Source: a virus. From it: a stretch of 27,162 nt of DNA. The notes below the pieces were generated by a model. It was not told where the DNA came from and made no database searches. It worked only from the letters and a program-made list of their open reading frames with translations. The stretch covers positions 1 to 27,162 of IMG/VR virus record IMGVR_UViG_3300007734_000535; one strand, written 5' to 3'. How positions within the stretch are numbered: the stretch's first letter is position 1; each line of letters opens with the position of its first letter. Positions 3 through 17,753 of this stretch are shown in pieces. Made by a program: the position numbers and the translations under genes.

Positions 3-71
3 GCAGCTAGTGAAACACCAGAGAATTCCGAAGCAACCGCTGAGGAGCAAACAAAAACACAGGAGGACATT
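3..71 (+). other. 3' part of protease-capsid linker, cut by window start
   Basis: The frame of the capsid gene at 72 is open upstream to the window edge and encodes the same Glu/Thr/Gln-rich linker as residues 149-171 of the complete fusion in copy 2 (14699-16279). Copy 1 therefore also belongs to a protease-capsid fusion whose protease half lies outside the window. AGGAGG at 61-66 lies within this linker. Confidence 0.85.
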
Positions 72-74
72 GTG
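61..74 (+). promoter_or_regulatory. Internal Shine-Dalgarno and GTG start for capsid protein
   Basis: A perfect AGGAGG (61-66) stands 5 nt before an in-frame GTG (72) inside the protease-capsid reading frame. In copy 2 the same AGGAGG (15201-15206) precedes TTG (15212) at the same spacing. The codon changes only between two legal start codons, as expected if initiation is selected. It would make capsid protein without the protease domain. Confidence 0.7.
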
Positions 75-1139
75 TCAGATACACAAACAGCTCCTATCGC
101 GACCGAAGCGGTAGAAGCTACAAAATCTGAGCCTGTGGCAATTCAAGCAACTCAACCAGTTGCTTACACAAAGCCACGCTCACCAATCAATTCACAAGCT
201 CGTTTCTTAGAGCATTCAATCAAAGCATCAATGGGCAGCCATGAGAGTGCATCTTATGTTGCATTAGCAAAAGATGAGGCAAAAAGAGTTTTAACTGCTG
301 CTGATGATAGCTTTACAACTAACCCAGCGTTTAAGCCAATTCAATATGTTTCAACAGTTATTGATACACAAATTGGCGCACGCGGTGCAATTGATGCAAT
401 TGGAACAAAGAGATTGCCAAATTTCGGAATGCAGGTTTCTGTTCCAAAAATTACCACAAATTCTACTGTCGCAAGCACCGGAGAAGGATCAGCACCATCT
501 GAAACAGGAATTGTTTCAAGTTATGTTGATTTGCCTGTAACCAAGTATGCAGGATTACAACGCTACAGCGTTGAGATTGCAGATAGAGCAGATCCATCTT
601 TTTATGATGCGATGCTTGAAAACCTTCGTAGATCTTACGCACAAGCTACTGAGGCAGCCGTAATTGCAGCACTTACATCAGGTGGCACACAATCAACAGC
701 AACATCAGCTGATCTTGATGGAATTGTTGCATTCGTAAAGACTGAAACACCTGCTGCATACCTTGCAACTGGTGAGTTAGCAACACGCTACATTGCTGGA
801 ACATCACAATGGGGCTTACTAATTGGCGCACAAGACAGTTCAAAGCGACCAGTATTTTCTGCAAGCCAACCATTTAATGCTGCTGGTTCAGTTTCAACAC
901 AGAGCCTACGCGGAAATGTTATGGGCTTGGATCTTTATGTTTCAAATAAGGCTGTATCTACAACAATTGATGAGAGCGCATTTATTGTCGTTCCATCAGC
1001 TGTTGCAATTTACGAAAGCCCAACACTACAACTAGCAACTAATGTTGTTACAAGTGGTGAGATTGAAATCATGCTTTACGGATACCTAGCAACTGGTGTT
1101 TTGGTTGCCGGTGGAGTTCGCCGCTATAACCTAACCTAA
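72..1139 (+). CDS. HK97-fold major capsid protein (C-terminal part of a protease-capsid fusion)
   Basis: The 355-aa product from the internal GTG forms the icosahedral shell. The sequence has the order of HK97-like major capsid proteins: an N-terminal Gln/Ala/Pro-rich arm (about residues 1-65), then a segment ending in SETGIVSSYVDL and the YAGLQRYSVEI motif (about 135-170), then the peripheral-domain half with DLDGIVAFV and a C-terminal GVRRYNLT. The frame continues upstream to the window edge, so this is also the C-terminal part of a fusion with an S78 prohead protease, seen complete at 14699. The downstream neighbour is a connector gene, separated by a structured 67-nt gap. Compared with copy 2 the protein differs mainly at residues 50-75, 115-140 and 280-300; the C-terminal half is the most conserved. 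Confidence 0.9.
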   Translation: MSDTQTAPIATEAVEATKSEPVAIQATQPVAYTKPRSPINSQARFLEHSIKASMGSHESASYVALAKDEAKRVLTAADDSFTTNPAFKPIQYVSTVIDTQIGARGAIDAIGTKRLPNFGMQVSVPKITTNSTVASTGEGSAPSETGIVSSYVDLPVTKYAGLQRYSVEIADRADPSFYDAMLENLRRSYAQATEAAVIAALTSGGTQSTATSADLDGIVAFVKTETPAAYLATGELATRYIAGTSQWGLLIGAQDSSKRPVFSASQPFNAAGSVSTQSLRGNVMGLDLYVSNKAVSTTIDESAFIVVPSAVAIYESPTLQLATNVVTSGEIEIMLYGYLATGVLVAGGVRRYNLT

Positions 1140-1206
1140 TAATGGTCATGCCTGTGGTTGCTCCCGATCACAGGCAGTTGCTCTAGGGAGACTTAAAGGA
1201 GATGAC
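1140..1206 (+). promoter_or_regulatory. Structured intergenic RNA: hairpin with possible H-type pseudoknot
   Basis: The stem TGCCTGTG (1149-1156) pairs with CACAGGCA (1169-1176). In copy 2 the stem is TGCCTGAG/CTCAGGCA, so pair T1155-A1170 is replaced by A-T: a compensatory change. Loop bases CTCCC (1161-1165) can pair with GGGAG (1186-1190), giving an H-type pseudoknot conserved in both copies. It ends 5 nt before the Shine-Dalgarno AAGGAG (1196-1201) of the connector gene at 1207. No T-tract follows, so it is not a canonical terminator. Control of translation or mRNA stability between capsid and connector is inference. Confidence 0.7.
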
Positions 1207-1779
1207 ATGCCAACCATAATTACAGCTGCACAGTTGCGAAGTGTGCTTGGTGTGTCATCTGCCTTGTATGACGACACTTATCTAAATCAAATAATAAATA
1301 CAGCTGAAACAGTTGTCTTGCCAATGCTTGCACAATATAAGAGTTTTGTGCAAAAAACTTCATTGACAGATAATGTCGCAACATTTACAACTTTAGGAAC
1401 ACATGAATTTACCGAAGGACAATCAGTCGTTATTGCCGGATGCCTTAGCCCATACAACGGAACTCGCACAGTATTGGCTGGCGATCTTACAGATACTACC
1501 TTTACAGCAGCGATCACAAATGCAAATGTATTGGAAGCTAATGTCATCCCATCCGGAACTGCTACCTTATCAAATGCAACGACTTATGTTGGAAACGCAG
1601 CAGTCGAAAGCGCAATCTACACAGTATCAGTAGAAGTATTTCAAGCAAGACTTGCTGGCGGAGGACAAATCGAAGGAGTAGATTTTACTGCAACTCCGTT
1701 TCGCATGGGGAGATCGCTTTACAATAAATGCGTAGGCCTGTTAGGTTCTTACATAGATCCCGAAGGCATGTGTCAATAA
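1207..1779 (+). CDS. Head-tail connector/adaptor protein (gp6-like)
   Basis: This 190-aa protein follows the capsid gene, where siphoviruses encode the adaptor ring that joins portal to tail. The N-terminal ~45 residues (AAQLRSVLGV, then a helix over 27-41) and the C-terminal ~55 residues (VEVFQARLAGGGQ to the end) resemble the helical halves of gp6-like connectors. Between them, about residues 57-117, lies a beta-rich, Thr/Gly-rich insert (FTEGQSVVIAG, PYNGTRTVL), which makes the protein longer than a minimal adaptor. The start is ATG with AAGGAG 5 nt upstream. The stop abuts the next gene. The insert varies most between copies, while the DNA of the last ~50 codons is nearly identical. Confidence 0.65.
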   Translation: MPTIITAAQLRSVLGVSSALYDDTYLNQIINTAETVVLPMLAQYKSFVQKTSLTDNVATFTTLGTHEFTEGQSVVIAGCLSPYNGTRTVLAGDLTDTTFTAAITNANVLEANVIPSGTATLSNATTYVGNAAVESAIYTVSVEVFQARLAGGGQIEGVDFTATPFRMGRSLYNKCVGLLGSYIDPEGMCQ

Positions 1780-2169
1780 ATGCCAGCATCAACAATTCTT
1801 TCACAAATTCGCACACCTTTAGCCACAGCTCTTGCTGGTGTTGCAGGAAACATTTATTCATTTGTGCCTGAAACTGTTATTCCACCAGCTGTCGTTTGCA
1901 TGCCGGATAGCCCATACATTGAATTAGAAACAATTAACAAATCTACTATTCACGCAAAACTCAATTACACAATCTCAGTTGCCGTTGCTTACAATAGCAA
2001 TCCTGCTTCATTGGATAATATCGAGCAACTAATAATGAGCGTTCTGGCAGTTATCCCAACAGGATATGTTGTCAGTTCAGTAGAAAGACCTACTGTTACA
2101 CAAGTTGGAGCAAGCACGCTGCTAATTGCAGATGTTCGAGTTTCTACCTACTACACACAAACCGCATAA
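1780..2169 (+). CDS. Probable tail terminator / tail completion protein
   Basis: A 129-aa protein beginning directly after the connector stop. It has an N-terminal helix (ILSQIRTPLATALAGV), a PDSPYIELE segment and alternating strand/helix segments ending in VRVSTYYTQTA. Size, position between connector and tail tube, and overall pattern fit the small alpha/beta tail-terminator proteins that cap the tail tube at the head side. The call rests on position and pattern, not on a diagnostic motif. Six residues differ from copy 2, and the DNA from about 1788 to 2070 is almost identical. Confidence 0.55.
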   Translation: MPASTILSQIRTPLATALAGVAGNIYSFVPETVIPPAVVCMPDSPYIELETINKSTIHAKLNYTISVAVAYNSNPASLDNIEQLIMSVLAVIPTGYVVSSVERPTVTQVGASTLLIADVRVSTYYTQTA

Positions 2170-2178
2170 GGAGAAATC

Positions 2179-2586
2179 ATGGCAACCACAGTAATAACCG
2201 GTCGCGATATTTCGTTGTCTTTCACAGGTGGAACAGACATCGAAGCGCAAGCGACTAGCGCAATTTTGACAAAGGTTTTAGAGCGACAGACCTATCAAAC
2301 ACTTGATGGCGAGGCTTACAAAACCACAAATGTATCAGCTACATTCGCACTAGAAATGTTAGCCGATTGGGGCAAGACAAGTTCCGTATGTGAGGCACTT
2401 TGGACTGCATGCGATACCGCACCAGATACAGACATTACAATTACATTAGTAAGTGCAACAGGCGCATCATTTTCATTTCCAATTAAGCCAAGTTACCCAA
2501 CAGTTGGTGGATCAGGAATGGATGCACAAACAGTTACTTATGAATTTTTAGTTACAGGTGGCGCAGTAACTGAAACATTTAGTTAA
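2179..2586 (+). CDS. Major tail tube protein
   Basis: A 135-aa, Thr/Ser/Ala-rich, beta-strand-rich protein lying between the tail terminator and the tail assembly chaperone, the usual place of the siphovirus tail tube subunit. The start is ATG with AAGGAG (2168-2173) upstream. ISLSFTGG near the N-terminus and SFPIKPSYPTVGGSGMDAQTV near the C-terminus are conserved with copy 2. The middle (residues 28-60) varies between copies, consistent with a surface-exposed region. The protein is short compared with many tube proteins and carries no Ig-like domain. Confidence 0.7.
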   Translation: MATTVITGRDISLSFTGGTDIEAQATSAILTKVLERQTYQTLDGEAYKTTNVSATFALEMLADWGKTSSVCEALWTACDTAPDTDITITLVSATGASFSFPIKPSYPTVGGSGMDAQTVTYEFLVTGGAVTETFS

Positions 2587-2606
2587 GATCTAACAACGGG
2601 AGCAAA

Positions 2607-2888
2607 ATGAAACTACCAATCACAATTGAATACAGCTCAGGCGAACAAGTTACTTATGTAGCCCAACCGCCTGAGTGGGCAAAATGGGAAAAGCAGACAG
2701 GACATACCATTGGTCAAGCAGCTGAGAAGTTGGGTGTTTGGGATCTTATGTTTTTGGCTTATCATGCTCATAAGCGTGAAGTTGCCGGAAGCAAACCAAT
2801 CAAACCAATGGATACTTGGATGGAAACAATAGCCGATGTGATTGTTGGTGATGGTGAAAACCCAAAAGCCACAAAGCAGGAAGCCTAA
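2607..2888 (+). CDS. Tail assembly chaperone, short form (gpG-like)
   Basis: A 93-aa product translated without frameshifting. It has an N-terminal beta part (LPITIEYSSGE) and a helical part with PPEWAKWEKQTGHT and VWDLMFLAYHAHKRE, as in tail assembly chaperones that hold the tape measure protein before tube polymerisation. Position between tail tube and tape measure agrees. Near its 3' end it contains the slippery heptamer CCCAAAA (2861-2867), which allows a longer frameshift product. Six residues differ from copy 2. Confidence 0.75.
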   Translation: MKLPITIEYSSGEQVTYVAQPPEWAKWEKQTGHTIGQAAEKLGVWDLMFLAYHAHKREVAGSKPIKPMDTWMETIADVIVGDGENPKATKQEA

Positions 2889-3001
2889 GCAGACTATTGG
2901 TTGAGTTGGCAATAGCCACACAAATACCAATGAGCGAATGGGTTGAAGCCGAGGACATTTTAACAGCGATCGAGATATTGGAGAAACGGAATGGCAACTA
3001 G
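2607..3001 (+). CDS. Tail assembly chaperone, -1 frameshift long form (gpGT-like)
   Basis: A -1 slip on C_CCA_AAA (2861-2867) takes ribosomes from 87 codons of the chaperone frame into a 44-codon extension ending at TAG 2999-3001, for about 131 aa. The extension is helical and acidic (LLVELAIATQIP, WVEAEDILTAIEILEKR), typical of the T-type extension of lambda GT-like chaperones. The -1 frame is open and conserved in copy 2 with only three residue changes (K3P, S23K, E24D of the extension). It overlaps the next gene's start (2991) by 11 nt. Frameshifting itself is inferred from the heptamer, open frame and family behaviour. Confidence 0.7.
2861..2867 (+). promoter_or_regulatory. -1 ribosomal frameshift slippery heptamer CCCAAAA
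   Basis: C_CCA_AAA is in the correct phase with the chaperone gene (codons AAC CCA AAA) and fits X_XXY_YYZ. It lies 7 codons before the short-form stop and is identical at 18008-18014. I did not identify a convincing downstream stimulatory structure by eye. Confidence 0.7.
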
Positions 3002-3503
3002 CACCGAACCTCTAATAGTTTATGACAAAAGAGAACTTGCTTCATTTGCTAGAGTAATTAAAAGCATGAGCGATATTGCTGTTGAGGAAACTAAGCGCAG
3101 AGTTGGCGAATTAGCACAAAGAGAATTAAATGAAATTCGCAATGTTGCTAAATCAAGAGGCAAAGTTTCTGATCGTGTTGCTCAAGGCGGTAAGGTAAAG
3201 AAATCCTCATTACTTGGCGAGATCTCATTTGGATTTGCTTCACAAAGATTTTCAGGTGGTGCAACAACTCAATTCAATACTCGCAATGATCCTAAAGGTA
3301 ATCGTAAAGGTATTGGTGCAGCATCAGAATTTGGTTCAGGTAAATATCCACAATTCCCAAGATGGTCAGGGCCGATGCCTAAAGGGCCGGGTTCAAGAGG
3401 TTGGTTTATTTATCCAACCATTAGACATTTACAACCTACAATTATTAAAGAGTTTGAGGAAATCATTCTAGATATAAAGAAGGAATTCTCTGATGGCAAG
3501 TAA
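2991..3503 (+). CDS. HK97 gp10-like minor head-tail / tail protein
   Basis: A 170-aa basic protein. It starts with helices (residues 14-55, rich in Arg/Glu) and has the motif GAASEFGSGKYPQFPRWSG (about 107-125) followed by GPGSRGWFIYPTIRHL (about 130-145). This combination resembles the HK97 gp10-like family, with its E-F/Y-G then a conserved Trp/Phe-Pro-Ile/Leu-R segment. It normally sits near the connector genes; here it sits after the chaperone. Only three residues differ from copy 2, so it is among the most constrained proteins. Its start overlaps the chaperone frameshift extension and its end overlaps the tape measure start by 11 nt. Confidence 0.55.
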   Translation: MATSTEPLIVYDKRELASFARVIKSMSDIAVEETKRRVGELAQRELNEIRNVAKSRGKVSDRVAQGGKVKKSSLLGEISFGFASQRFSGGATTQFNTRNDPKGNRKGIGAASEFGSGKYPQFPRWSGPMPKGPGSRGWFIYPTIRHLQPTIIKEFEEIILDIKKEFSDGK

Positions 3504-4788
3504 TAGTAGAACATTAACGCTTGCCTTAGCAGCTGATATTGATGGCTTAAAAAAAGGCTTAGATGACGCCAATAAGGTAGTCAATAAATCTGCCGATCAA
3601 ATCTCCGACTTTGGCAAAAAAGCAGCATTGGCATTTGCAGCCGTTGGAGCAGCAGCCACAGCATTTGCAGTATCAGCTGTAAAGGCAGCAGCCGAGGATG
3701 AGAAGGCTCGAAAGTCTTTAGAACAAACAATCAGAGCCAATACAAAGGCAACAGACGATCAGATCAAATCAATCGATACTTACATCACAAAGCAATCAAT
3801 TGCTACTGCAACTACCGATGATGTTTTAAGACCTGCATTTGCTCGATTAATTCGATCAACAAATGATGTTGCAAAGGCTCAAGATCTTTTGGCTTTATCT
3901 CAAGAAATTGCAACTGCCACCGGTAAGCCACTTGAGGTAATAACAAATGCTTTGGGCAAGAGTTTTGATGGACAAAATACAGCTCTTGGCAAACTTGGTT
4001 TAGGTATTGATGCCGCTACCCTCAAGACCAAATCTCATGAGGAAATCATGCAGATGCTTAAAGGAACTTATAAAGGCTTTATTGAAAATGAGGCAACTAA
4101 CGCAGAATTTAAGATGAGGCAATTAGAGATTGCATTCTCTGAAACCAAAGAACAAATTGGGAATGCTTTACTTCCAATCATGAAACAATTTGCTGATTAT
4201 TTGCTGGCAGTAGTTGTTCCTAATGTTCAGGCTTTGGCTGCTGGTTTGACTGGTGAGAGAAGCGTTACCGCTGGCATTACTGATGCAACGCAAGGAGCAT
4301 ACAAATTTGGTCAGCAATTAAAAGATACTTTGAAATTTATTATAAGCATTAAAGATGAATTAATTATTCTTGCTGGAATTATTGCAACTGTATTTGTTGC
4401 CAATAAAATTGCTGCTTTTGTTACTGCAATCCTTACATTAGTTTCGGCGATGAAAGCCTTGAGGACTGCTGCTGCTGGTGCTGCTATTGCTACCGCATTT
4501 GCAACCGGAGGAACATCTGTTGGATTGGCTTCCGCTGCTCTTGCTGGTATTGCTGCAACTTATGGTTTATCACAATTGGCTGGCGATCAAGGTTTATCTA
4601 TACCTCAAACTTCATTTGCTCAATCCTCAGGAGGAACTCCATTTGGTCAAGCAGGTGGCAACACTTACAACATTGCAGTCCAGTCAATCGATAGTGAAGG
4701 TGCTGCAAGAGCCGTTGCAAAGGTGTTAAATGACAGCGCATCAAGATCAGTTCCACAGCTGTTTAATAACGGCATCAAAGGCAACTAA
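3493..4788 (+). CDS. Tail tape measure protein
   Basis: At 431 aa this is the longest tail protein, located after the chaperone, and would set tail length. The N-terminal half is helical, with an Ala-rich hydrophobic run (about 43-65, KKAALAFAAVGAAATAF). KSFDGQNTALGKLGLGID and the following helix (to about residue 225) resemble tape measure proteins of small siphoviruses. A strongly hydrophobic segment (about 287-320, IILAGIIATVFVANK) and an Ala/Gly-rich tract follow. GTPFGQAGGNTYNI and SIDSEGAARAVAKVLN close the protein. At roughly 0.15 nm per residue this predicts a tail near 65 nm. Copy 2 is six residues shorter, in the Ala-rich/linker tract. Confidence 0.85.
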   Translation: MASNSRTLTLALAADIDGLKKGLDDANKVVNKSADQISDFGKKAALAFAAVGAAATAFAVSAVKAAAEDEKARKSLEQTIRANTKATDDQIKSIDTYITKQSIATATTDDVLRPAFARLIRSTNDVAKAQDLLALSQEIATATGKPLEVITNALGKSFDGQNTALGKLGLGIDAATLKTKSHEEIMQMLKGTYKGFIENEATNAEFKMRQLEIAFSETKEQIGNALLPIMKQFADYLLAVVVPNVQALAAGLTGERSVTAGITDATQGAYKFGQQLKDTLKFIISIKDELIILAGIIATVFVANKIAAFVTAILTLVSAMKALRTAAAGAAIATAFATGGTSVGLASAALAGIAATYGLSQLAGDQGLSIPQTSFAQSSGGTPFGQAGGNTYNIAVQSIDSEGAARAVAKVLNDSASRSVPQLFNNGIKGN

Positions 4789-6035
4789 TGACAGTCTGGA
4801 CACCAGATTGGAAACTTACTGTTGCAGGTGTTGATTACACAGATTTAACCATTAGCGACATTATTCATCAAGCAGGTCGGGATGATATTTATACGCAACC
4901 AAACCCATCTTATTTGCAATGCACAATTGTGGCTTTGGCTGGACAAACAATTGATTTTGATATTAATGATAGTTTGAGTTTGCAAGTTAAAAACAGCGCA
5001 GGAACTTATGTAAATCTATTTGGTGGAGATATAACCGATATTACTGTTGAGGTTGGGCGAACTGGATCAGTTGCAGCTGTTATTCAATACACCATTCTTG
5101 CAATGGGATCTTTAGTTAAATTAGCAAAAGAAATTTGGGATGGAAATATTCCTCAAGATGAAGATGGCGAACAAATCTATCAAATACTTTCTAGCGTATT
5201 GCTTGGGGCTTGGAATTCTGTGCCAGCAGCTTCCACTTGGGCAACTTATGACCCAACAGAAACTTGGGCAAATGCTGTCAATTTAGGACTTGGCGAAATT
5301 GATCGCCCAGGACTTTACACAATGCAACATCAACCAAGCACAACTGATACCATTTACAACATTGTTTCAAATATTGCTAACAGCGCATTTGGATACATTT
5401 ACGAGGACAATTCTGGAAATATTGGATATGCCGATCAAGACCATAGACAGACCTATTTGACCGCCAATGGATATGTAGATCTAACTGGTCATCATGCAAT
5501 TGGATCTGGATTAAGAACTACGAAAAAAGCAGCTGATGTTAGAAATGATATTTACATTAATTATGGCAATAATTATGGCTCACAAAAAACTGCCACGTCA
5601 GCGGCTTCCATCGCCCTTTATGGATATAAAGCCGAGAGTATAAATTCATTGATTCATGATGCTGCCGGTGCTCAAGAGGTTGCTGATCGATACATTAGCC
5701 TTCGAGCCTTTCCTCAGCCTTTATTTGATAGCATCACTTTCCCAATTACCAATCCAGAGATAGACAACTCAGATCGAGATAACCTATTAAGCATATTTAT
5801 GGGTATGCCTTTGAACATTTCCGAATTACCACTTCAAATCAATAATGGTCAATTTCAAGGATATGTTGAGGGCTGGAAATGGAGCACTCGATTTAATGAA
5901 TTGTTCCTGACGATCAATCTATCACCGGTCAGCTTTAGCCAAGTTTCAATGCGTTGGAATGCTGTGCCAATAGGCGAGGCATGGAACACTTTAAGCCCAA
6001 CTTTAACATGGGAATACGCTACAATCGTAGCCTGA
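4788..6035 (+). CDS. Minor tail / tail-tip (baseplate hub) protein
   Basis: A 415-aa protein directly after the tape measure (TAATG overlap), where siphoviruses encode distal tail and hub proteins. The beginning (TVWTPDWKLTVAGVDYTDLT) looks like the beta-rich start of tail-tip hub proteins. The middle has WANAVNLGLGEIDRPG and IANSAFGYIYEDNSGNIGYAD, a pattern of beta-domains that bind the central hub. The C-terminus repeats Trp-rich strands (RWNAVPIGEAWNTLSPTLTW). No enzymatic motif was found. The copies differ mostly at 100-230, with conserved C-terminal domains. Combining distal tail and hub roles in one gene is plausible in such a small genome. Confidence 0.65.
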   Translation: MTVWTPDWKLTVAGVDYTDLTISDIIHQAGRDDIYTQPNPSYLQCTIVALAGQTIDFDINDSLSLQVKNSAGTYVNLFGGDITDITVEVGRTGSVAAVIQYTILAMGSLVKLAKEIWDGNIPQDEDGEQIYQILSSVLLGAWNSVPAASTWATYDPTETWANAVNLGLGEIDRPGLYTMQHQPSTTDTIYNIVSNIANSAFGYIYEDNSGNIGYADQDHRQTYLTANGYVDLTGHHAIGSGLRTTKKAADVRNDIYINYGNNYGSQKTATSAASIALYGYKAESINSLIHDAAGAQEVADRYISLRAFPQPLFDSITFPITNPEIDNSDRDNLLSIFMGMPLNISELPLQINNGQFQGYVEGWKWSTRFNELFLTINLSPVSFSQVSMRWNAVPIGEAWNTLSPTLTWEYATIVA

Positions 6036-6048
6036 TAATAGGAGAAAA

Positions 6049-6777
6049 ATGGCAACTACTACAAACTATGGCTGGACAACGCCTGACGATACTGCGTTGG
6101 TTAAAGATGGTGCATCAGCAATTCGCACGCTTGGTTCATCTGTTGATACAACTACCAAAGCATTAAATCCAGAAACAACACTTGGTGATATTGCTTATCG
6201 ATCATCATCGGCAAATGTAAAAACTAGACTTGGAATTGGATCAACTGGTCAAGTTTTAACAGTATCTGGTGGCGTTCCTGCATGGCAAAGTATTTCAGCG
6301 GGTGGATTTACTGAACTTGCTTCTGGATCATTACCATCAAGCACAGAATTAAATCTAACTAGCATTTCAGGATCTTATAAGAATCTTCAGTTGGTTGTAA
6401 GAAATTTAACAACAAGTTCAAACCAAACTGTTAGAGTAAGATTTAATGGTGCAACAGGTGGATACCAAAACATCTCTGTTTATTATCCGGGTGGTGCAAT
6501 TGGCACAGCTACAACAAACGCATTTGATCCATATTATTTTGACATTAAAGCCGGTATTGGTTATGGCACTTTAGTAGTCAATGCTTACGATTATGCAAAC
6601 ACAGAGGGATACAAAATGTTTGATGGTCAGGCTTCTGTTTATAACACAAGCAATCAAGATGCAAACGCTTTTGCTTATGGTTGTTTGAGAGAATCACCAG
6701 CAATTACCAGCATTAAAGTATTTATAGCATCAGGAACATTCACCGCAGGAACTTATGCATTATATGGAGTTAAATAA
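6049..6777 (+). CDS. Tail fibre / receptor-binding protein
   Basis: A 242-aa, Ser/Thr/Gly-rich protein after the tail tip gene, with AGGAG upstream. The N-terminal ~40 residues (MATTTNYGWTTPDDTALVKD, then an Ala/Ile/Arg-rich helix) form the tail-attachment part and are shared with copy 2. LGIGSTGQVLTVSGGVPAW (about 61-79) resembles a fibre connector repeat. From about residue 40 the sequence is unrelated to copy 2 and ends in a beta-rich domain (about 90-242), the likely receptor-binding head. This conserved base with exchanged tip is what host-range modules look like. It overlaps the next gene by one nucleotide (TAATG). Confidence 0.75.
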   Translation: MATTTNYGWTTPDDTALVKDGASAIRTLGSSVDTTTKALNPETTLGDIAYRSSSANVKTRLGIGSTGQVLTVSGGVPAWQSISAGGFTELASGSLPSSTELNLTSISGSYKNLQLVVRNLTTSSNQTVRVRFNGATGGYQNISVYYPGGAIGTATTNAFDPYYFDIKAGIGYGTLVVNAYDYANTEGYKMFDGQASVYNTSNQDANAFAYGCLRESPAITSIKVFIASGTFTAGTYALYGVK

Positions 6778-6977
6778 TGAAAATAACTGAACACAATGTT
6801 GAAACTGGCGAAATCATTGAAAGAGATGCAACTGCCGAGGAATTGGCTCAATACGAACTAGATGCAGCAGAGCGAGAAGCACAATTGGCAGAAGCAGAAG
6901 CAAAAGCAACCGCTAAGGCTGAATTACTTGAGCGTTTAGGCATTACCGAGGATGAAGCAAAACTGCTCCTTGCGTAA
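6777..6977 (+). CDS. Small Ala/Glu-rich fibre-associated protein
   Basis: A 66-aa protein: MKITEHNVETGEIIERDAT, then an Ala/Glu-rich helical run (about 20-52), then a conserved tail LLERLGITEDEAKLLLA. Small proteins of this kind commonly follow fibre genes in phages and may help fibre assembly or attach to the baseplate; that role is inference. Copy 2 keeps only the C-terminal ~20 residues and has an unrelated 62-residue N-terminus, so the front of this gene travels with the fibre cassette. It overlaps the endolysin start by one nucleotide. Confidence 0.6.
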   Translation: MKITEHNVETGEIIERDATAEELAQYELDAAEREAQLAEAEAKATAKAELLERLGITEDEAKLLLA

Positions 6978-7396
6978 TGAAACCATTTTTATCTAAAGCT
7001 GCCGTTCAACTCCGGGAACAGATTGATGATTTATTCCCGGATCGCAGCCGTAAAAGTGATGGATGGATAGCCTCGGCACAACATCAAATGCGATCAAAGA
7101 TTTCGGATCACAACCCGCTTCCTTCGGGTGAAGTGTGTGCTATCGACATCACAGCAGATCTTGGCGCAGCTGAAGGAATATCCGCATATCTTGCTGATCA
7201 AATCCGCATTGCTGGCAAAACAGATAAGCGAATCAAATATGTAATTCATAATCATCATATTGCCAGCAAACTATTAAATTGGCGTTGGCGGAAATATAAG
7301 GGCGCATCACCGCACACAGCTCATGTGCATATTTCATTCCATCCAAATCAATCAGGCGAATTTTTCAACATCCCACTACTAGGAGGCAACGCATGA
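6977..7396 (+). CDS. M15-family peptidase endolysin
   Basis: A 139-aa zinc metallopeptidase-like protein, predicted to cut peptidoglycan peptide stems (D-Ala-D-Ala carboxypeptidase / L-Ala-D-Glu endopeptidase type) at lysis. The zinc-site pattern is SDHNP (His45), a downstream Asp57 in CAIDI, and a C-terminal H-x-H-x-S motif (His116/His118, HVHISF). There is no signal peptide or separate cell-wall binding domain; the length fits a minimal catalytic domain. It is translationally coupled to the small gene before it and overlaps the holin gene by 4 nt. Residues ~31-65 around the first ligands differ strongly from copy 2. Confidence 0.8.
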   Translation: MKPFLSKAAVQLREQIDDLFPDRSRKSDGWIASAQHQMRSKISDHNPLPSGEVCAIDITADLGAAEGISAYLADQIRIAGKTDKRIKYVIHNHHIASKLLNWRWRKYKGASPHTAHVHISFHPNQSGEFFNIPLLGGNA

Positions 7397-7596
7397 AACT
7401 ATCAAACAAACACAAGGCTGCAATTAAGTCATATTTGAGAGCTGTGGCTGCTTCTGGAATAACTGTCCTTTTGGCAATCGTTGCTGATATTCGACCAGAG
7501 TTTGCAATCCTTGCTGGTGCGTTAGTTGCACCTATCGCAAAAGCATTAGATCCAAAGTCCGGTAAAGAATCTGATTATGGAATTAATGCGAAATGA
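7393..7596 (+). CDS. Holin-like membrane protein
   Basis: A 67-aa protein with a short basic N-terminus, two hydrophobic segments (about 14-32, SYLRAVAASGITVLLAIVAD, and 37-52, FAILAGALVAPIAK) and a charged tail beginning LDPKSGK. Size, two predicted membrane segments and position directly after the endolysin fit a small holin, which would permeabilise the membrane at lysis. AGGAGG (7381-7386) precedes the ATG. Only two residues differ from copy 2. Confidence 0.7.
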   Translation: MKLSNKHKAAIKSYLRAVAASGITVLLAIVADIRPEFAILAGALVAPIAKALDPKSGKESDYGINAK

Positions 7597-7787
7597 CAGC
7601 CAACGAATGGGTTGGTATCGCCGTTGGCGTATCCGCCATATCAACAAGTTTGTTGCTGGGTCTGCGCTGGGTTATTAAATCCTACTTACAAGAATTGAAG
7701 CCCAATTCTGGAAGTTCGATCAAAGATCAAATTACACGATTAGAACAGCGTGTCGATGATCTGTTTGTTTTAATGTCTAAGCGATAA
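7593..7787 (+). CDS. Single-pass membrane protein of the lysis cassette
   Basis: A 64-aa protein overlapping the holin gene by 4 nt. One hydrophobic segment (about 5-27, EWVGIAVGVSAISTSLLLGL) is followed by a predicted coiled coil (IKDQITRLEQRVDDLFVL). It could be a second holin-type protein, a holin regulator, or a small spanin-like anchor; nothing in the sequence decides. Five residues differ from copy 2. Confidence 0.6.
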   Translation: MTANEWVGIAVGVSAISTSLLLGLRWVIKSYLQELKPNSGSSIKDQITRLEQRVDDLFVLMSKR

Positions 7788-7795
7788 TTTTATTT

Positions 7796-8053
7796 ATGGC
7801 GAACACTCGAAAACCTATCAAACGCAAAAAGATCAATCGTCGTGTCGTTCGCCAATCTCCTGAACCATTAACAAAGATAGATCAGCATTACACCGCACTA
7901 CACGAATGCTACAAAGCAGCTCGTAAAGCAGGATTTACTCCAGAGCACGCATTCTGGTTGATGACCGAGCATAAGACTTTTCCTGATTGGATCGTAGGCG
8001 ATGGCGGAATCATTCCTTCCATAGATCCAACTGACGATGAGGATGACGATTAA
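7796..8053 (+). CDS. Conserved 85-aa protein of unknown function
   Basis: I do not recognise its function. The first 25 residues are strongly basic (KPIKRKKINRRVVR), the middle is helical with aromatic residues (YTALHECYKAARKAG, PEHAFWLMTEHKTFPDWIVG), and the end is acidic (DPTDDEDDD). The protein is identical in both copies although the DNA carries several silent changes, so selection on the protein is strong. No Shine-Dalgarno is obvious before the ATG. It overlaps the metallophosphatase gene by 17 nt. Its charge pattern would suit a nucleic-acid or protein-binding accessory factor, which is inference. Confidence 0.7.
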   Translation: MANTRKPIKRKKINRRVVRQSPEPLTKIDQHYTALHECYKAARKAGFTPEHAFWLMTEHKTFPDWIVGDGGIIPSIDPTDDEDDD

Positions 8054-8801
8054 AGCCAATCGCAGGTATCTCATAACGCCAGATTTGCAAATTCCACTTC
8101 ATCACCCACAAGCTGTAAAAAACCTCATTCGCATGAGCAAGCATGAAAAATTTGATTATGTATTAAATGTTGGTGATGAACTAGATATGACTTCTCAGAG
8201 CCGTTGGGTAAAACATACAAAATTAGAGTTTGCCGAAACACTTGATGAAGAAAGAACTATTGCTCAAAACATTCTTTACGATTTAGGCACAACAGATATA
8301 ATTAGATCCAACCATACAGATCGATTATTTACGACCTTGCTGAAAGGTGCTCCATCATTACTTGGATTGCCCGAACTGGTTTATGAAAAATTTATGAACT
8401 ATTCAGATCTCGGCATTCGTTTCCATAAAAGAGCTTATGAATTTGAAAAGGGCTGGTATTTGGCTCATGGCGATGAAGGCGTTATGTCTAAGCATGCAGG
8501 TATAACTGCCCTAAATCTGGCTAAAAAATGGGGAAATAGCGTGGTTTGTGGGCATACCCATAGGCAGGGTGCTACTCGACACCAAACTGGCTTAAACGGG
8601 CGTTATTCAACGATTTGGGGTATAGAAGCCGGTCATCTTATGGACATGAAGAATAAAGCCTCTTACCTAAAATATGCGTCAGCCGACTGGAATATGGGAT
8701 TTGTTGTGCTGAGTTTTGGCAAGAAAGGCATGAGCGTAGAAGTTGTGCCGGTCAATCATGATGGGTCATTCAGCTACAATAAGCGTTCTTATGGGTCGTG
8801 A
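8037..8801 (+). CDS. Calcineurin-like metallophosphoesterase
   Basis: A 254-aa protein with the metal-binding motifs of the calcineurin-like superfamily in order: Asp16 in TPDLQIPLHH, Asp47 in VGDE, Asn92-His93 in SNHTDR, His144 in AHGDEG, and His173/His175 in CGHTHRQG. The first motif has DLQ in place of the usual D-x-H. The superfamily hydrolyses phosphomono- or diesters, including nucleotides and nucleic acids; the substrate here is unknown. Lying between lysis and replication genes, a role in DNA end processing or nucleotide metabolism is possible. All ligands are conserved in copy 2. Confidence 0.8.
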   Translation: MRMTIKANRRYLITPDLQIPLHHPQAVKNLIRMSKHEKFDYVLNVGDELDMTSQSRWVKHTKLEFAETLDEERTIAQNILYDLGTTDIIRSNHTDRLFTTLLKGAPSLLGLPELVYEKFMNYSDLGIRFHKRAYEFEKGWYLAHGDEGVMSKHAGITALNLAKKWGNSVVCGHTHRQGATRHQTGLNGRYSTIWGIEAGHLMDMKNKASYLKYASADWNMGFVVLSFGKKGMSVEVVPVNHDGSFSYNKRSYGS

Positions 8802-8868
8802 AACAGACTATATCGAACGCACGATTGATACTCATATCGATGAATTTGAGGATCTTGGCTTTATCTAA
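8791..8868 (+). CDS. Tiny conserved ORF, 25 aa, acidic
   Basis: The ATG at 8791 lies inside the end of the metallophosphatase gene (11-nt overlap). The peptide is acidic (MGRETDYIERTID..., ...DEFEDLG). In copy 2 (23947-24024) the same 25 codons are kept with three residue changes (E9D, T14N, F24V). Function is unknown. Constraint on an overlapping or regulatory sequence is the alternative. Confidence 0.45.
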   Translation: MGRETDYIERTIDTHIDEFEDLGFI

Positions 8869-8965
8869 TCGTTATAAAACACGCCGTAGGTCAGGTAGAT
8901 AAAAGACTTGATTTAGGTCAAACTTTATGTATTCACAGAGATACTGTGGATATGTAGGGAGCGAC
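8869..8965 (+). promoter_or_regulatory. 97-nt intergenic region before the replication module
   Basis: This is the longest gap in the unit. TCGTTATAAAACACGCCG at its left end and everything from 8926 to 8965 are unchanged in copy 2, while the part between (8887-8925) has diverged. It is the natural place for an early promoter, but I find no -35/-10 pair with standard spacing that is conserved in both copies (TTGATT at 8908 and TATGTA at 8926 are only 12 nt apart). The ribosome binding site AGGGAG (8956-8961) serves the Prim-Pol ATG at 8966. Confidence 0.4.
8926..8956. promoter_or_regulatory. 31-bp imperfect palindrome upstream of Prim-Pol, candidate operator or RNA hairpin
   Basis: The arms TATGTATTCACAG (8926-8938) and CTGTGGATATGTA (8944-8956) are inverted at 10 of 13 positions around AGATA, with a perfect core CACAG/CTGTG. 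The element is unchanged in copy 2 (24082-24112). It ends at the ribosome binding site. A repressor binding site, origin element or mRNA hairpin would all fit. Confidence 0.5.
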
Positions 8966-9454
8966 ATGTTATTAGATACAAGTAATCGAGGCTTTGCCTT
9001 AGATTATGCAGAGCGAGGATGGGCAGTCTTGCCATTGTTGCCACGCAAGAAAGATCCGCACTTTGACTTGGCTCAAAGGGCTTACTTATCAGCTACAACC
9101 GACCAGAAACTTATTAACTTTTGGTTTGATTATGATGAAAATATCAACATTGGAATAGCCTGTTATCAGTCAGGCTTGGTTGTATTTGATATTGATTATC
9201 GCAATGGCGGTGAATTGCTATCAGAGTTTGAGCCAACATACACAGTTCAAACTGGTGATGGTTTGCACCTTTATTACACAGCTGACAAATCTGATGTTTT
9301 TAAGGGTAAGTTAGTTGATGGAATTGATATTAAGTGGAAAGGTTATGTTGCAACTGCACCATCAATCCATCCGTCAGGAGCAAGATATACAGTAATCGAT
9401 GACCGAAATCCGGTTGCGATGCCTAAAGCAATAAGGGAGTGGGCAACAAAATGA
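8966..9454 (+). CDS. Stand-alone primase-polymerase (Prim-Pol) domain protein
   Basis: A 162-aa protein with the bifunctional primase/polymerase N-terminal fold: ALDYAERGWAVLPLLPRKKD at the start, metal-binding VFDID (Asp75, Asp77), the histidine motif GLHLYY (His101), and GIDIKWKGYVATAPSIHPSG (about 119-138). Such domains make primers and extend DNA; in larger phages they are joined to a helicase, which is absent here. I chose ATG 8966 because AGGGAG lies 4 nt upstream. An earlier ATG (8927) would place the palindrome inside the gene and has no ribosome binding site. The copies differ mainly at residues 82-115. Confidence 0.8.
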   Translation: MLLDTSNRGFALDYAERGWAVLPLLPRKKDPHFDLAQRAYLSATTDQKLINFWFDYDENINIGIACYQSGLVVFDIDYRNGGELLSEFEPTYTVQTGDGLHLYYTADKSDVFKGKLVDGIDIKWKGYVATAPSIHPSGARYTVIDDRNPVAMPKAIREWATK

Positions 9455-9666
9455 ATATCTATAACGAATTAAAAGATCTTGGATATGTGATTATGTGGTC
9501 AATTGTGGCTTTAACAATTGCAATATGGATAATCCACGAAATCAAAGAAACTGCATTTCAGTCAGGCTACTGGAAAGGTCGCAAAGACGGCTGGGACATG
9601 TATCGCAGAATGGCTGAAACAAAGCGTAAGTCAGATGAGGTTTTTGACTATGACAAGCAGAACTGA
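9451..9666 (+). CDS. Small single-pass membrane protein
   Basis: A 71-aa protein whose ATG overlaps the Prim-Pol stop (ATGA). One hydrophobic segment (about 11-28, GYVIMWSIVALTIAIWII) is followed by a conserved charged/aromatic tail HEIKETAFQSGYWKGR and GWDMYRR. The N-terminus before the segment is unrelated to copy 2, but the tail motif is shared. An upstream GTG (9439) is possible but lacks a spaced ribosome binding site. Function is unknown; membrane attachment of replication proteins is a guess. Confidence 0.55.
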   Translation: MNIYNELKDLGYVIMWSIVALTIAIWIIHEIKETAFQSGYWKGRKDGWDMYRRMAETKRKSDEVFDYDKQN

Positions 9667-9946
9667 GTTTTTGGATGAGATCGCAACAATTCTCTCAGCT
9701 AGAGGATCGGTTTACGGAAGCAGTCAAAGCAATCACGAACGAATCTCAGAGTTGTGGTCTGCTTACTATGGAGATTACATATCGCCAATGCAGGTCAGCA
9801 TCATGCAACTGCTTGTTAAGGTCAGCAGACTTGCCGAAACTGCAAATCACCAAGATAGTGTTAAAGACATCATTGGTTATGCAGTCATCTACAAAGAATT
9901 GCACGACCATTACGACCAAGAGTTTGGAGTAGCTGATGGCATTTAA
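9650..9946 (+). CDS. DUF6378-like phage protein
   Basis: A 98-aa helical protein with the recurring pattern ARGSVYGSSQSNHERISELW, then LLVKVSRLAE and DSVKDIIGYAVIY. This layout (R-G-x-Y-G, N-H, W, K-x-x-R, D-S-x-x-D-x-x-x-Y) matches the DUF6378 phage family, distantly like all-alpha nucleotide hydrolases. Activity is not established. It overlaps the membrane protein gene by 17 nt. An in-frame ATG at 9635 would add five residues. It is one of the most divergent proteins between copies, though the pattern residues are kept. Confidence 0.55.
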   Translation: MTSRTEFLDEIATILSARGSVYGSSQSNHERISELWSAYYGDYISPMQVSIMQLLVKVSRLAETANHQDSVKDIIGYAVIYKELHDHYDQEFGVADGI

Positions 9947-10598
9947 TCTTGAGGATTATGAGGATGTGGCTACTTTGAACAAATGGTTTATTGCCAATTA
10001 TCCAATGGGTCGATCTGATATATCAGTTATTAGCCATGATCCTGAAAAGGGTTATATCTTGGTGCAAGCAACTTTGTGGCGAGATGCAGCAGATCCAGCA
10101 CCGGCAGTTAGCAACATTGCATTTGGATCTAGAGAAACCTATATGGCGAATATGAAAAAATGGTATGTCGAGGATACTGCCAGCAGTAGTTTGGGAAGGG
10201 CAATAATAATTCTTAAAGGCTCAAACAAAACTGCTACAAAAGACAGCATGGAAACTGTCAAGGCAGATCAATCCTTTAAGGAGAAATTAGAAAGTCGCCA
10301 AAACATGTATGGCAAGGCAGGATCAAAGTCAGCACAAATTGAAACAATCCTTAGAGATAGTTTTGAAGCTGATAAACCTAAAGATCCGGTTGCATGGTCT
10401 GTTGGTGATGTAGTTGCTGAGATTGGTGCATCAATACCTAATGAGCCACCTGCATGTCAGCATGGTCATATCTTGAAAGAAGGAATCTCAAAAGGAGGTA
10501 AGCCTTATTATGGGTATGTTTGCAAAACAAAAGCATGTGAACCTAAATGGGCAAAACTTACAGCTAATGGAAAATGGTATTTTGAAGGAGGTGAATAA
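9936..10598 (+). CDS. Putative single-strand annealing / ssDNA-binding protein with C-terminal zinc finger
   Basis: A 220-aa protein. Residues 1-110 contain a beta-rich core (YILVQATLWRD), then EDTASSSLGRAIIILKG (79-95), which resembles the conserved T-S-x-x-G-R-A helix of Erf/Rad52-like single-strand annealing proteins. The C-terminus (about 174-201) holds a likely zinc site: Cys174, His176/His178, Cys196, Cys201. It would act in recombination or protection of single-stranded DNA next to Prim-Pol. Only nine residues differ from copy 2. An annealing role is an inference from a short motif and gene context. Confidence 0.5.
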   Translation: MAFNLEDYEDVATLNKWFIANYPMGRSDISVISHDPEKGYILVQATLWRDAADPAPAVSNIAFGSRETYMANMKKWYVEDTASSSLGRAIIILKGSNKTATKDSMETVKADQSFKEKLESRQNMYGKAGSKSAQIETILRDSFEADKPKDPVAWSVGDVVAEIGASIPNEPPACQHGHILKEGISKGGKPYYGYVCKTKACEPKWAKLTANGKWYFEGGE

Positions 10599-10799
10599 AT
10601 GGGTGAATTACAGATAATTGACGGCTCTGGTCTAACTGCAACCTTTACGGATGATGGAGTTATCGTAGAGCCATCAACAATCAAATGCGACACTTGCAAT
10701 GATGACAGATTACTTCACGAGGGCGATCTGCTTCGATGCTATGTGTGCCACACAATCAACAGAATTCCTTATCCGGTGCATAAGGACTTAAATGCCTAA
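10599..10799 (+). CDS. 66-aa Cys4 zinc-ribbon protein
   Basis: The gene starts directly after the previous stop. A strong ribosome binding site (AAGGAGGTGA) lies at the end of the preceding gene. Residues 1-27 are beta-rich (GELQIIDGSGLTATFTDDG). Two cysteine pairs, CDTC (30-33) and CYVC (47-50), form a zinc ribbon. Function is unknown; small zinc ribbons of this kind bind nucleic acid or protein. Copy 2 lacks the last six residues. It overlaps the FmdB-like gene by 8 nt. Confidence 0.65.
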   Translation: MGELQIIDGSGLTATFTDDGVIVEPSTIKCDTCNDDRLLHEGDLLRCYVCHTINRIPYPVHKDLNA

Positions 10800-10962
10800 T
10801 TACGAATACTTCTGTGATGGTGAGGGGTCGATGATTGTATTGGATTTACCAATGGATCATAAAATCCCTCATTGTCAAGCATGCAACGCACCTTTAAGGC
10901 GTATCTATACAGCTGTGCCAACTATCTTTAAGGGAACTGGATGGGCTGGCAAACTTGGTTAA
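10792..10962 (+). CDS. FmdB-family zinc-ribbon-like protein, 56 aa
   Basis: The start MPNYEYFCDGEG, central CQAC and the end FKGTGWAGK match the FmdB-type small zinc-ribbon layout (M-P-x-Y-x-Y-x-C, C-x-x-C, a final K-G-x-G-W). The usual first C-x-x-C knuckle has lost its second cysteine (CDGEG) in both copies, so classical four-cysteine zinc binding is not possible without another ligand. Fifteen residues differ from copy 2, more than in its neighbours. Function is unknown. Confidence 0.65.
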   Translation: MPNYEYFCDGEGSMIVLDLPMDHKIPHCQACNAPLRRIYTAVPTIFKGTGWAGKLG

Positions 10963-11191
10963 ATTCAAATGCAATGGCTGCTCAGGCAACACCGAATTCA
11001 TATGGCTTGAGGGTTATTCCACAGCTCATGGATTTAGGGTTTATCAATGCCTTAGATGCAATTGCATTGGAACAAAGAATCTAGCAGAAGCAACTGACAC
11101 TCAAGAGCCTGTAATTAGATGCACTAAATGCGGATCTTGGATGTTCGTAGATCAGGAGTGCCATACATGTGCGCTAATCATGACGAAATGA
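10955..11191 (+). CDS. 78-aa double zinc-ribbon protein
   Basis: Cysteine pairs CNGC (6-9), CLRC (32-35), CTKC (56-59) and CHTC (69-72) suggest two zinc ribbons in tandem. The start is TTG here and GTG at the same place in copy 2 (26091), both legal starts, overlapping the FmdB-like stop by 8 nt. Only one residue differs between copies (V65A), so it is tightly constrained. It may bind nucleic acid or RNA polymerase; that is inference. Confidence 0.65.
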   Translation: MVKFKCNGCSGNTEFIWLEGYSTAHGFRVYQCLRCNCIGTKNLAEATDTQEPVIRCTKCGSWMFVDQECHTCALIMTK

Positions 11192-11286
11192 CGCATCAGA
11201 TCAATTGGGCTTATCAAAACAAGCTGCGTGAGCAATGGTTGTTAAATAATCCAGATGCACAATACATCGGATGGATGTCGATATGA
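11188..11286 (+). CDS. Tiny conserved ORF, 32 aa
   Basis: The ATG overlaps the preceding stop (ATGA, 11188-11191) and the stop overlaps the next tiny ORF (ATGA). The peptide contains INWAYQNKLREQWLL and ends YIGWMSI. In copy 2 (26324-26422) all 32 codons are kept with three residue changes, and most other differences are silent third-position changes, the signature of a translated gene. An ATG at 11167 would add seven residues in copy 1 (TTG in copy 2). Function is unknown. Confidence 0.55.
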   Translation: MTHQINWAYQNKLREQWLLNNPDAQYIGWMSI

Positions 11287-11387
11287 GTGTTGCCGGATAC
11301 GATGAAACTTGGATTGAGTTGATGGGATACAAGATCATGACTTGCCGTCTGACCTGCGATTATGCTGATGGATTTGGAAGCGTATGA
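11283..11387 (+). CDS. Tiny conserved ORF, 34 aa
   Basis: This ORF is coupled by ATGA overlaps at both ends. The peptide has GYDETWIELMGY and a pair of cysteines in TCRLTC. Copy 2 (26419-26523) keeps length and frame with three residue changes (K17T, D26G, S33I). Function is unknown. It could pass translation from the zinc-ribbon genes to the transglycosylase. Confidence 0.5.
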   Translation: MSVAGYDETWIELMGYKIMTCRLTCDYADGFGSV

Positions 11388-11794
11388 TACCCTTAAACGC
11401 AAATTCGCTTTCAGAGCGAAAGGGCGATCTGCGAAGCAGAAAGATCGCAAGGTTTGGTTTGGTGATATCTCTGTTCATAGTCTTGAACATAGGCCTTTTA
11501 AAAGATGATTCCGTTGCTTCATTAGATAGAACTAATCATTACAGACAATGGGCTTTCATACAGCTTAACAACCTAGATCAATTCTATTGTTTAGATGAAT
11601 TGAATTTTAAGGAGAGCCGGTGGGATCCTAAGGCTCGGAATGGTTCGCACTTCGGTATTCCACAAGGTAGATCTAAATGGCTTGCATCAGTTGATGGATA
11701 CAAACAGATTGATTGGCAATTGAAATACATAAAGAAGCGATACTCTAATCCTTGTAATGCTTTGGCTCATCATAAGATTAAGGGATGGTATTGA
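11384..11794 (+). CDS. Membrane-anchored lytic transglycosylase-like protein
   Basis: A 136-aa protein. After a basic N-terminus there is one hydrophobic segment (about 24-39, FGLVISLFIVLNIGLL), a signal anchor or signal peptide. The domain that follows has the transglycosylase/resuscitation-factor-like pattern: KESRWDPKARNG (Glu77, the likely catalytic acid), GIPQG (91-95), then an Asp-Trp pair, KKRYSNPCNAL and H-H-x4-GWY at the end. Cys69 and Cys124 could form a disulfide outside the membrane. It would cut glycan strands, complementing the M15 peptidase, at lysis or during entry. It overlaps the HNH gene start by 4 nt when TTG 11791 is used. Confidence 0.75.
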   Translation: MIPLNANSLSERKGDLRSRKIARFGLVISLFIVLNIGLLKDDSVASLDRTNHYRQWAFIQLNNLDQFYCLDELNFKESRWDPKARNGSHFGIPQGRSKWLASVDGYKQIDWQLKYIKKRYSNPCNALAHHKIKGWY

Positions 11795-12096
11795 GTAAGA
11801 GTGCATTAAGATCAACAGGATCAACAAGGCATTGGAGATCTATTAGGTCTAGAGTATTAAGGCGTGATGGGTTCATCTGTCAATACTGCAATCAAGAGGC
11901 TACAACTGTGGATCATGTAATACCTAGACGGCTTGGTGGATTAGATAGCGATGACAACCTAGTTGCAAGCTGCACAAGGTGCAATTTAAGCAAGGGTGGG
12001 CGGTTTTTTGTGAGCAAGAGGACACCACCGACCCCCCGTTCCTTTTCTAACCCACAAAACACCTCGATCGCTCACGATCAGACTGAATCGCTTTGA
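11791..12096 (+). CDS. HNH endonuclease (packaging-associated)
   Basis: A ~101-aa HNH nuclease: GSTRHWRSIRSRVLRRDGF, a CQYC zinc pair, VDHVIPRRLGG (catalytic Asp-His), and DNLVASCTRCNLSKGGR with the second CxxC. HNH proteins next to the large terminase are required for cos cleavage and packaging in many HK97-type phages. The Pro/Ser/Thr-rich C-terminus is likely disordered. TTG 11791 has AAGGG at suitable spacing and overlaps the previous stop (TTGA); ATG 11785 is the alternative but AAGGG touches it. It overlaps the terminase gene by 4 nt. Confidence 0.85.
   Translation: MSKSALRSTGSTRHWRSIRSRVLRRDGFICQYCNQEATTVDHVIPRRLGGLDSDDNLVASCTRCNLSKGGRFFVSKRTPPTPRSFSNPQNTSIAHDQTESL
12023..12041. other. 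C-rich stretch, candidate cos region
   Basis: Within the 3' end of the HNH gene lies CACCACCGACCCCCCGTTC, a sharp local change in base composition in an A+T-rich genome. GGTGG (11995-11999) and CCACC (12025-12029) form inverted repeats around it. Cohesive ends often lie near HNH/terminase genes in such phages. The assignment is speculative. Copy 2 stops at the equivalent of 12026. Confidence 0.25.
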
Positions 12097-16279: not shown

Positions 16280-16353
16280 TAAGTAAGTAAATTCATGCCT
16301 GAGGTTGCTCCCGATCTCAGGCAGTTGCTCTAGGGAGAACCTAAGGAGATGAC
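16280..16353 (+). promoter_or_regulatory. Structured intergenic RNA (copy 2)
   Basis: The stem TGCCTGAG (16296-16303) pairs with CTCAGGCA (16316-16323), the covarying counterpart of TGCCTGTG/CACAGGCA at 1149-1176. Loop CTCCC (16308-16312) and GGGAG (16333-16337) retain the pseudoknot pairing. The sequence upstream of the stem differs in length and bases, while stem, loop and the GTTGCTCTAGGGAG tail are conserved. The connector Shine-Dalgarno AAGGAG (16343-16348) follows. Confidence 0.7.
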
Positions 16354-16926
16354 ATGCCAACCATAATTACAGCCTCACAGTTGCGATCTGTGCTTGGTGT
16401 GTCATCTGCCTTGTATGACGACACTTATCTAAATCAAATTATTGACACAGCAGAAACAGTTATTCTGCCAATGCTTACGACTTTCAAAAGTCCAATCCAA
16501 GCAACTGAATTGTCAGCCAATATTGCTACATTTACCACACTAGGAATTCATGAATTTACCGAAGGACAATCAGTTGTCATCACAGGATGCGGAACACCTT
16601 ACAACGGAACAAGAGTTGTGTTGGCAGATAATCTTGGACAATATACCTTTTCGCAATCGATCACTAATGCCGACATACTCGAGGCTAATGTCATCCCATC
16701 CGGAGTTGCTGCCCTTTCTGGCGGATCAACTTATGTTGGAAATGCAGCTGTTCAATCAGCCGTCTATACAGTTTCAGTCGAAGTTTTCCAAGCAAGACTT
16801 GCCGGTGGAGGACAAATCGAAGGAGTAGATTTTACTGCAACTCCGTTTCGCATGGGGAGATCGCTTTACAATAAATGCGTAGGCCTGTTAGGTTCTTACA
16901 TAGATCCCGAAGGCATGTGTCAATAA
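16354..16926 (+). CDS. Head-tail connector/adaptor protein (copy 2)
   Basis: A 190-aa counterpart of the connector at 1207, same length and same two-part layout. The helical N-terminus is nearly unchanged and the last ~50 residues (VSVEVFQARL onward) are identical. The inserted beta domain (about 50-125) carries most substitutions, e.g. TGCGTPYNGTRVVLAD here, which suggests an exposed insert rather than part of the ring core. AAGGAG lies 5 nt before the ATG. The stop is followed at once by the next ATG. Confidence 0.65.
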   Translation: MPTIITASQLRSVLGVSSALYDDTYLNQIIDTAETVILPMLTTFKSPIQATELSANIATFTTLGIHEFTEGQSVVITGCGTPYNGTRVVLADNLGQYTFSQSITNADILEANVIPSGVAALSGGSTYVGNAAVQSAVYTVSVEVFQARLAGGGQIEGVDFTATPFRMGRSLYNKCVGLLGSYIDPEGMCQ

Positions 16927-17316: not shown

Positions 17317-17325
17317 GGAGAAATC

Positions 17326-17733: not shown

Positions 17734-17753
17734 AAACTAACAACGGGAGCAAA

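Follow-up and report, generated by a model that had tools for sequence, protein, structure and literature searches.

From a single operon, tailed phages have to produce capsid subunits by the hundreds but only about a dozen connectors, and the way in which very small genomes set this capsid:connector ratio is, to our knowledge, largely unknown. In the phages M13 and phiX174, intercistronic hairpins behind the coat genes grade the expression of neighbouring structural genes, as the element described here may also do; they serve chiefly to terminate transcription weakly and to stabilise 3' ends, and we know of no comparable loop family among them. In T7, the only terminator for the phage RNA polymerase, T-phi, lies right after capsid gene 10, and the expression of genes 11-12 depends wholly on read-through (PMC5592923). 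The likeness lies in an RNA element directly 3' of the major capsid gene that sets, or in the present case probably sets, head-tail genes below capsid; T-phi, however, terminates the phage polymerase, whereas the present element lacks a U-tract, has a C-rich hexaloop that does not vary and is followed in one clade by its possible partner GGGAG. In T4, gp32 is an autogenous translational repressor that acts on a pseudoknot in its own mRNA, and the gene 32 operator of T4 and RB69 is likewise a small hairpin/pseudoknot 5' of the Shine-Dalgarno sequence of a phage mRNA, diverging between related phages (PMC535899). The locus studied here differs from it in the gene concerned, in the absence of UUAAA repeats, in a pseudoknot that is not kept between clades and in a binding protein that is hypothetical. 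The preQ1-II riboswitch (Rfam RF01054) is also a pseudoknot-capable leader before a ribosome binding site, but the element scores far below its gathering cut-off: Rfam 15 returned no family at gathering for the window or the other clades, and the best match of a permissive search with the element was preQ1-II at 16.4 bits against a cut-off of 47. No earlier description of the element was found in the literature searched, which was largely the openly accessible part. As far as that search reaches, the element is undescribed as an RNA family and ordinary in its probable purpose.

The window is the whole stretch of DNA analysed, a contig of 27,162 nt (an IMG/VR virus record, G+C 41%). It holds about 1.8 genome units from two strains of about 83% identity, arranged head to tail with an offset of 15147. 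The tandem copies of about 15.1 kb correspond as 8-12025 and 15148-27161, with exact common runs of up to 157 nt, and the contigs of relatives are in many cases 15-16 kb and in some 22-32 kb long. The arrangement may reflect an assembly walk across co-occurring strains or a true concatemer, and the two copies of the element are probably orthologues of two head-to-tail genome units, not a duplication within one phage. In these phages of about 15.1 kb the gene order is HNH, large terminase, portal, protease-capsid fusion, connector and tail genes, and the element occupies the capsid-connector junction:

72-1139, + strand: major capsid protein part of the protease-capsid fusion, unit 1, its 5' part lost at the contig start (PHROG 2263)
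1149-1159, + strand: 5' arm of stem S1, 11 nt, TGCCTGTGGTT; pairs with 1166-1176 and is 100% paired in 51 distinct relatives
1160-1165, + strand: hexaloop GCUCCC (CUCCC at 1161-1165); across clades, GCUCCC in 56 of 58 distinct hairpins and UCUCCC in 2 of 58
1166-1176, + strand: 3' arm of S1, GATCACAGGCA (comparative pairing)
1177-1185, + strand: linker L3, 9 nt (8-10 in relatives), whose sequence correlates with MCP type within the clade
1186-1190, + strand: GGGAG, complementary to CUCCC and the same in all 111 distinct elements; could form an H-type pseudoknot, in clade 1 only
1196-1201, + strand: connector Shine-Dalgarno sequence AAGGAG (from sequence), with the ATG at 1207
1207-1779, + strand: gp6-like head-tail connector with an inserted beta-barrel at residues ~43-123 (weak Phage_connect_1; AlphaFold pLDDT 81.5; structure matches)
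14699-16279, + strand: protease-capsid fusion, unit 2 (PHROG 2263/80; Pfam Peptidase_S78)
16296-16306, + strand: 5' arm of S1, unit 2, TGCCTGAGGTT (sequence; comparative pairing)
16307-16312, + strand: hexaloop GCUCCC, unit 2, with CTCCC at 16308-16312 (sequence; cross-clade hairpins)
16313-16323, + strand: 3' arm of S1, unit 2 (sequence; comparative pairing)
16333-16337, + strand: GGGAG, unit 2 (sequence; core pattern match)
16354-16926, + strand: connector, unit 2 (ORF; alignment)

A first-pass annotation of the window had described an 8-bp stem in two copies, TGCCTGTG (1149-1156) with CACAGGCA (1169-1176) and TGCCTGAG (16296-16303) with CTCAGGCA (16316-16323), which differ by one pair changed on both sides. 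Both copies are present as described, and exactly one pair, 7-22, has passed from T-A to A-T. The stem itself proved real but longer, 11 bp instead of 8, as G9.U20, U10-A19 and U11.G18 pair too and vary compatibly. The loop and its partner, CTCCC and GGGAG, lie where they had been placed (1161-1165 and 1186-1190; 16308-16312 and 16333-16337), and the spacing of 5 nt to the connector ribosome binding site (GGGAG, five bases, AAGGAG) and the lack of a T-tract were also borne out, with 0 intrinsic-terminator sites matched. Within the window the core pattern has two matches, against 0 expected in shuffles. The folding of single sequences is by itself only modestly special (z of -2.1 to -2.9); it is the comparative evidence that is decisive in judging the element to be far beyond chance. 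A covariance model run on the window found the two copies as the sole convincing matches (E 5e-14; next 0.32), and on other genome-length records it found at most one strong site each, apart from weak partial matches. The capsid stop codon lies 7-20 nt upstream of the stem (mode 10), and the 3' end of the hairpin roughly 25-35 nt upstream of the connector start.

Relatives were gathered by protein-based scans, which are unbiased towards the element, plus pattern scans, one of which covers the matches listed. Among these, 307 connector homologues have 70 nt or more of upstream sequence, and all 307 carry the element, in 111 distinct versions that always follow the pattern TGCC-(stem)-GCTCCC-(stem)-GGCA-(8-10 nt)-GGGAG; this group, to which the window belongs, is referred to as clade 1. 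In 51 distinct elements all of the 561 cells of the 11-bp stem are standard pairs; the four outer pairs (UGCC/GGCA) are invariant, and the seven others vary, five of them on both sides and two on one. The covariation score reaches 0.399; shuffles give 0.127 (0/500), and sliding the partner leaves no more than 0.094. Pair states change many times on trees of the connector, the capsid or both, although the counts of both-sided changes (104-118) are upper bounds, inflated by recombination that moves stems between lineages. A test of covariation beyond relatedness, which the first-pass annotation had proposed, supports a structured RNA: no phylogeny-preserving simulation comes up to pairs 6-23 and 7-22, whereas the other pairs do not stand out in this way within clade 1 alone, and stems have been swapped wholesale between clades. 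Additionally, the wobbles in the stem are G.U on the + strand only and never A.C, which indicates that the conserved molecule is the + strand (sense) RNA. Judged from the aligned sequences, the hairpin demonstrably exists as a + strand RNA under strong selection, and the comparative support is strong enough to define the element of 40-60 nt as a new RNA family.

Wider relatives were obtained with the capsid fusion of Curtobacterium phage Penoan as query and with three further connector scans. Distant relatives carry a hairpin at the same site with a wholly different stem, most of them with the same kind of loop. The stems found at this site are strong, with 11-14 bp and a mean dG of -22 to -30 kcal/mol. 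The 58 distinct hairpins compared across clades share the hexaloop (G/U)CUCCC, closed by a Y-R pair, and their pairs 3-10 outward are 97-100% paired compared to roughly 50-70% on random re-pairing. One large clade (clade 4) has the loop GCCCUU instead, with a stem that covaries equally; in nearly all of its leaders (L524-L603), UCUUUAGAAAG is kept 3' of the stem, even where the Shine-Dalgarno sequence lies further downstream. In the cultured relatives MooKitty, Adaia and Atraxa, the capsid-connector gap also holds strong hairpins, though with different loops. On the other hand, capsid and adaptor are just 3 nt apart in Decurro and Penoan, two 15-kb relatives, so that phages of this kind can do without the element. 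Its carriers form a very common group of tiny (~15 kb) freshwater bacteriophages, represented by hundreds of contigs. The connector had no relative in 84,980 host genomes and no match in 50,697 phage records, and in the latter the DNA of the element had no meaningful match either.

The element was found to travel with the gene downstream of it. Capsid and connector types show little association (rho 0.11), and the loop class is tied to the connector (rho 0.76), not to the capsid (rho 0.11), with CUCCC accompanying connectors of the MPTIITA type and GCCCUU those of the MALTT type. Locus pairs with close connectors and distant capsids (distance <0.2 and >0.4) share the loop class in 100% of cases, compared to 33% of pairs with close capsids and distant connectors. 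A similar trend was seen with the gene ends only. All these statistics have phylogeny and the sampling by connector query in common and do not count as independent. Within clade 1, linker L3 correlates with capsid type (0.45) more than with the connector (0.17), and some exchange points must therefore lie downstream of the hairpin. Overall, from the pattern of inheritance, the element behaves as the leader of the connector gene. In the loci of the protein scans, several unrelated capsid C-terminal types combine freely with one connector family, which points to heavy recombination at the capsid-connector junction.

We favour the reading, at a probability of about 50%, that the element is a cis-acting leader or insulator of the connector cistron in the late mRNA, which would keep connector and tail output well below capsid output. 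It is based on a hairpin that is unique in the genomes searched (bar weak matches) and on a loop class that is inherited with the downstream connector gene. A stem that starts about 10 nt past the capsid stop codon lies close to the front of a ribosome that terminates at this codon. The hairpin could thus block run-on or reinitiation by ribosomes that finish the very abundant capsid gene, limit ribosome access to the connector start and/or mark a protected mRNA end; in clade 1, GGGAG can moreover close an H-type pseudoknot with the CUCCC loop. In its simplest form, the scarce connector and tail genes would be uncoupled from the heavily translated capsid gene by an RNA insulator or brake. The control of capsid:connector expression that had been suggested from the window alone is plausible and, in our opinion, the favoured function. 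Some observations sit uneasily with it: Decurro and Penoan manage with their 3-nt gaps, L3 in clade 1 follows the capsid more than the connector, a good connector Shine-Dalgarno sequence is by itself no hint of repression, and co-inheritance with the connector may be linkage only. With one RNA element of 40-60 nt marking the junction, the question of the ratio becomes testable, and a laboratory route is offered by 15-kb Arthrobacter phages in culture, some with a hairpin (Adaia, MooKitty, Atraxa) and one lacking it (Decurro).

The main alternative to this leader or insulator is a transcription attenuator or an mRNA 3'-end/processing hairpin after the capsid gene, where some transcripts would end or be trimmed or protected. 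The site directly 3' of the capsid gene and the strong stems suit such a role, as does the precedent of the T7 terminator behind its capsid gene (PMC5592923). Intrinsic terminators combine a G+C-rich hairpin, which is present, with a U-tract directly 3' of the stem, which is absent from all leaders inspected. Moreover, a plain terminator or exonuclease block needs neither an invariant loop nor GGGAG. We regard termination or processing as improbable, roughly a one-in-five prospect, and still the strongest of the competitors.

A conserved loop implies a further specific contact, which could be with GGGAG in cis in clade 1 and with a protein or another RNA elsewhere. The cis contact, generalised, would be an H-type pseudoknot in which CUCCC pairs with purines further downstream, either GGGAG or the Shine-Dalgarno sequence, and masks the ribosome binding site, and the pseudoknot had already been proposed for the window. 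Both strands, CUCCC and GGGAG, are complementary and invariant across the 111 distinct elements of clade 1, and loop-3' complementarity there amounts to 4.86 nt compared to 3.58 nt in shuffled leaders. GGGAG lies 8-10 nt from the stem against 12-20 nt from the start codon, and it belongs with the hairpin because the former distance is the steadier. The geometry, with an L1 of 1 nt, an L2 of 0 nt and an L3 of 8-10 nt along an 11-bp S1, would allow the fold, and GGAG is present in 6 of 8 class F leaders. However, neither S2 strand varies at all in clade 1, so that nothing is able to covary there, and the two strands covary nowhere else. GGGAG is also not the nearest Shine-Dalgarno sequence. Above all, in clades 2 and 3, where the loop is still CUCCC, GGGAG or GGAG follows downstream in 0 of 56 and 0 of 23 distinct leaders (0/79 together), and loop-3' complementarity in these sister clades is not above shuffled. 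The pseudoknot therefore cannot be the general reason for the conservation of the loop, and as a general principle it is doubtful; what stands of the proposal is, at best, an addition specific to clade 1, where the pseudoknot may be real or GGGAG may serve as an upstream ribosome-standby tract. Pairing of the loop with the Shine-Dalgarno sequence as a rule for all clades was discarded on the clade 2 and 3 leaders and the complementarity test. By inspection, the Shine-Dalgarno sequence of clade 2 sits at about the position of GGGAG in clade 1. Leaders of clades 2 and 3 (L437 and L482, for instance) never have GGAG and use GAGAGGA or GAAAGGA as Shine-Dalgarno sequence, as if pairing with the loop were avoided.

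In the case of a contact in trans, a phage or host protein would specifically recognise the hexaloop as presented on its stem. The loop is invariant despite freely exchanged stems and tracks the connector family. It is also kept in clades that have no cis partner, which makes the protein-binding role raised in the first-pass annotation possible. As a complete explanation an operator of this kind seems unlikely, about on a par with the general pseudoknot. The connector itself, for instance, could be the protein and act as an autogenous translational repressor. Slightly less likely still is a loop recognised by a dedicated trans-acting factor, most attractively the head-tail connector; if true, the mRNA operator would let a tailed phage sense how much free connector it has, and operator and connector gene would evolve together as one unit. 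Here too, linkage alone can explain co-inheritance. In the AlphaFold model the inserted connector domain has six strands and lies between helices of the gp6-like adaptor. The barrel resembles the endosialidase (tailspike) of phages phi92 and K1F and ubiquitin E1 domains (Z ~9-10), which are not a known RNA-binding family, and the whole connector matches neck proteins of phages Milano, DT57C and T5 and of a gene transfer agent (Z 7-8). The fold search had no RNA-binding family among its matches, although absence from that list is not evidence, and the modelled fold neither supports nor excludes RNA binding. Cultured phages with short adaptors have hairpins too. A tie between the hairpin and connectors with the inserted beta-domain was suggestive at first and was weakened by the hairpins of the short-adaptor phages MooKitty, Adaia and Atraxa.

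A metabolite riboswitch for the connector cistron is very improbable: a compact hairpin/pseudoknot before a ribosome binding site does resemble small translational riboswitches, and there is the very weak preQ1-II score, but the ligand-binding RNA once suggested for this site finds no Rfam match, no conserved multi-residue pocket or riboswitch-like set of conserved unpaired residues, and a structural-gene context without an obvious ligand. Equally far-fetched is a translated leader peptide (ATG or GTG, then CCT, at 1148) or a DNA-level inverted repeat in place of an RNA: an ATG or GTG directly precedes the stem in every clade-1 element and inverted repeats can be operators, but the start codon has no Shine-Dalgarno sequence, changes in L3 length shift the frame, and the peptide was rejected on the absence of this codon from the other clades, while the abundant G.U, the lack of A.C and the fixed loop orientation favour + strand RNA over DNA. 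A -1 frameshift pseudoknot was rejected, as no slippery heptamer precedes the stem and the capsid stop codon intervenes.

Two minor observations concern the capsid gene. Within the protease-capsid fusion there is an AGGAGG-like tract with GTG after it in the first copy (61-74 of the window) and TTG in the second (15200-15214), as if translation of the capsid domain could also begin at a start of its own. Additionally, Pseudomonas phage Hadban (OR067381.1) matches the capsid region of the Arthrobacter phages MooKitty and Adaia, and its host label may be wrong.
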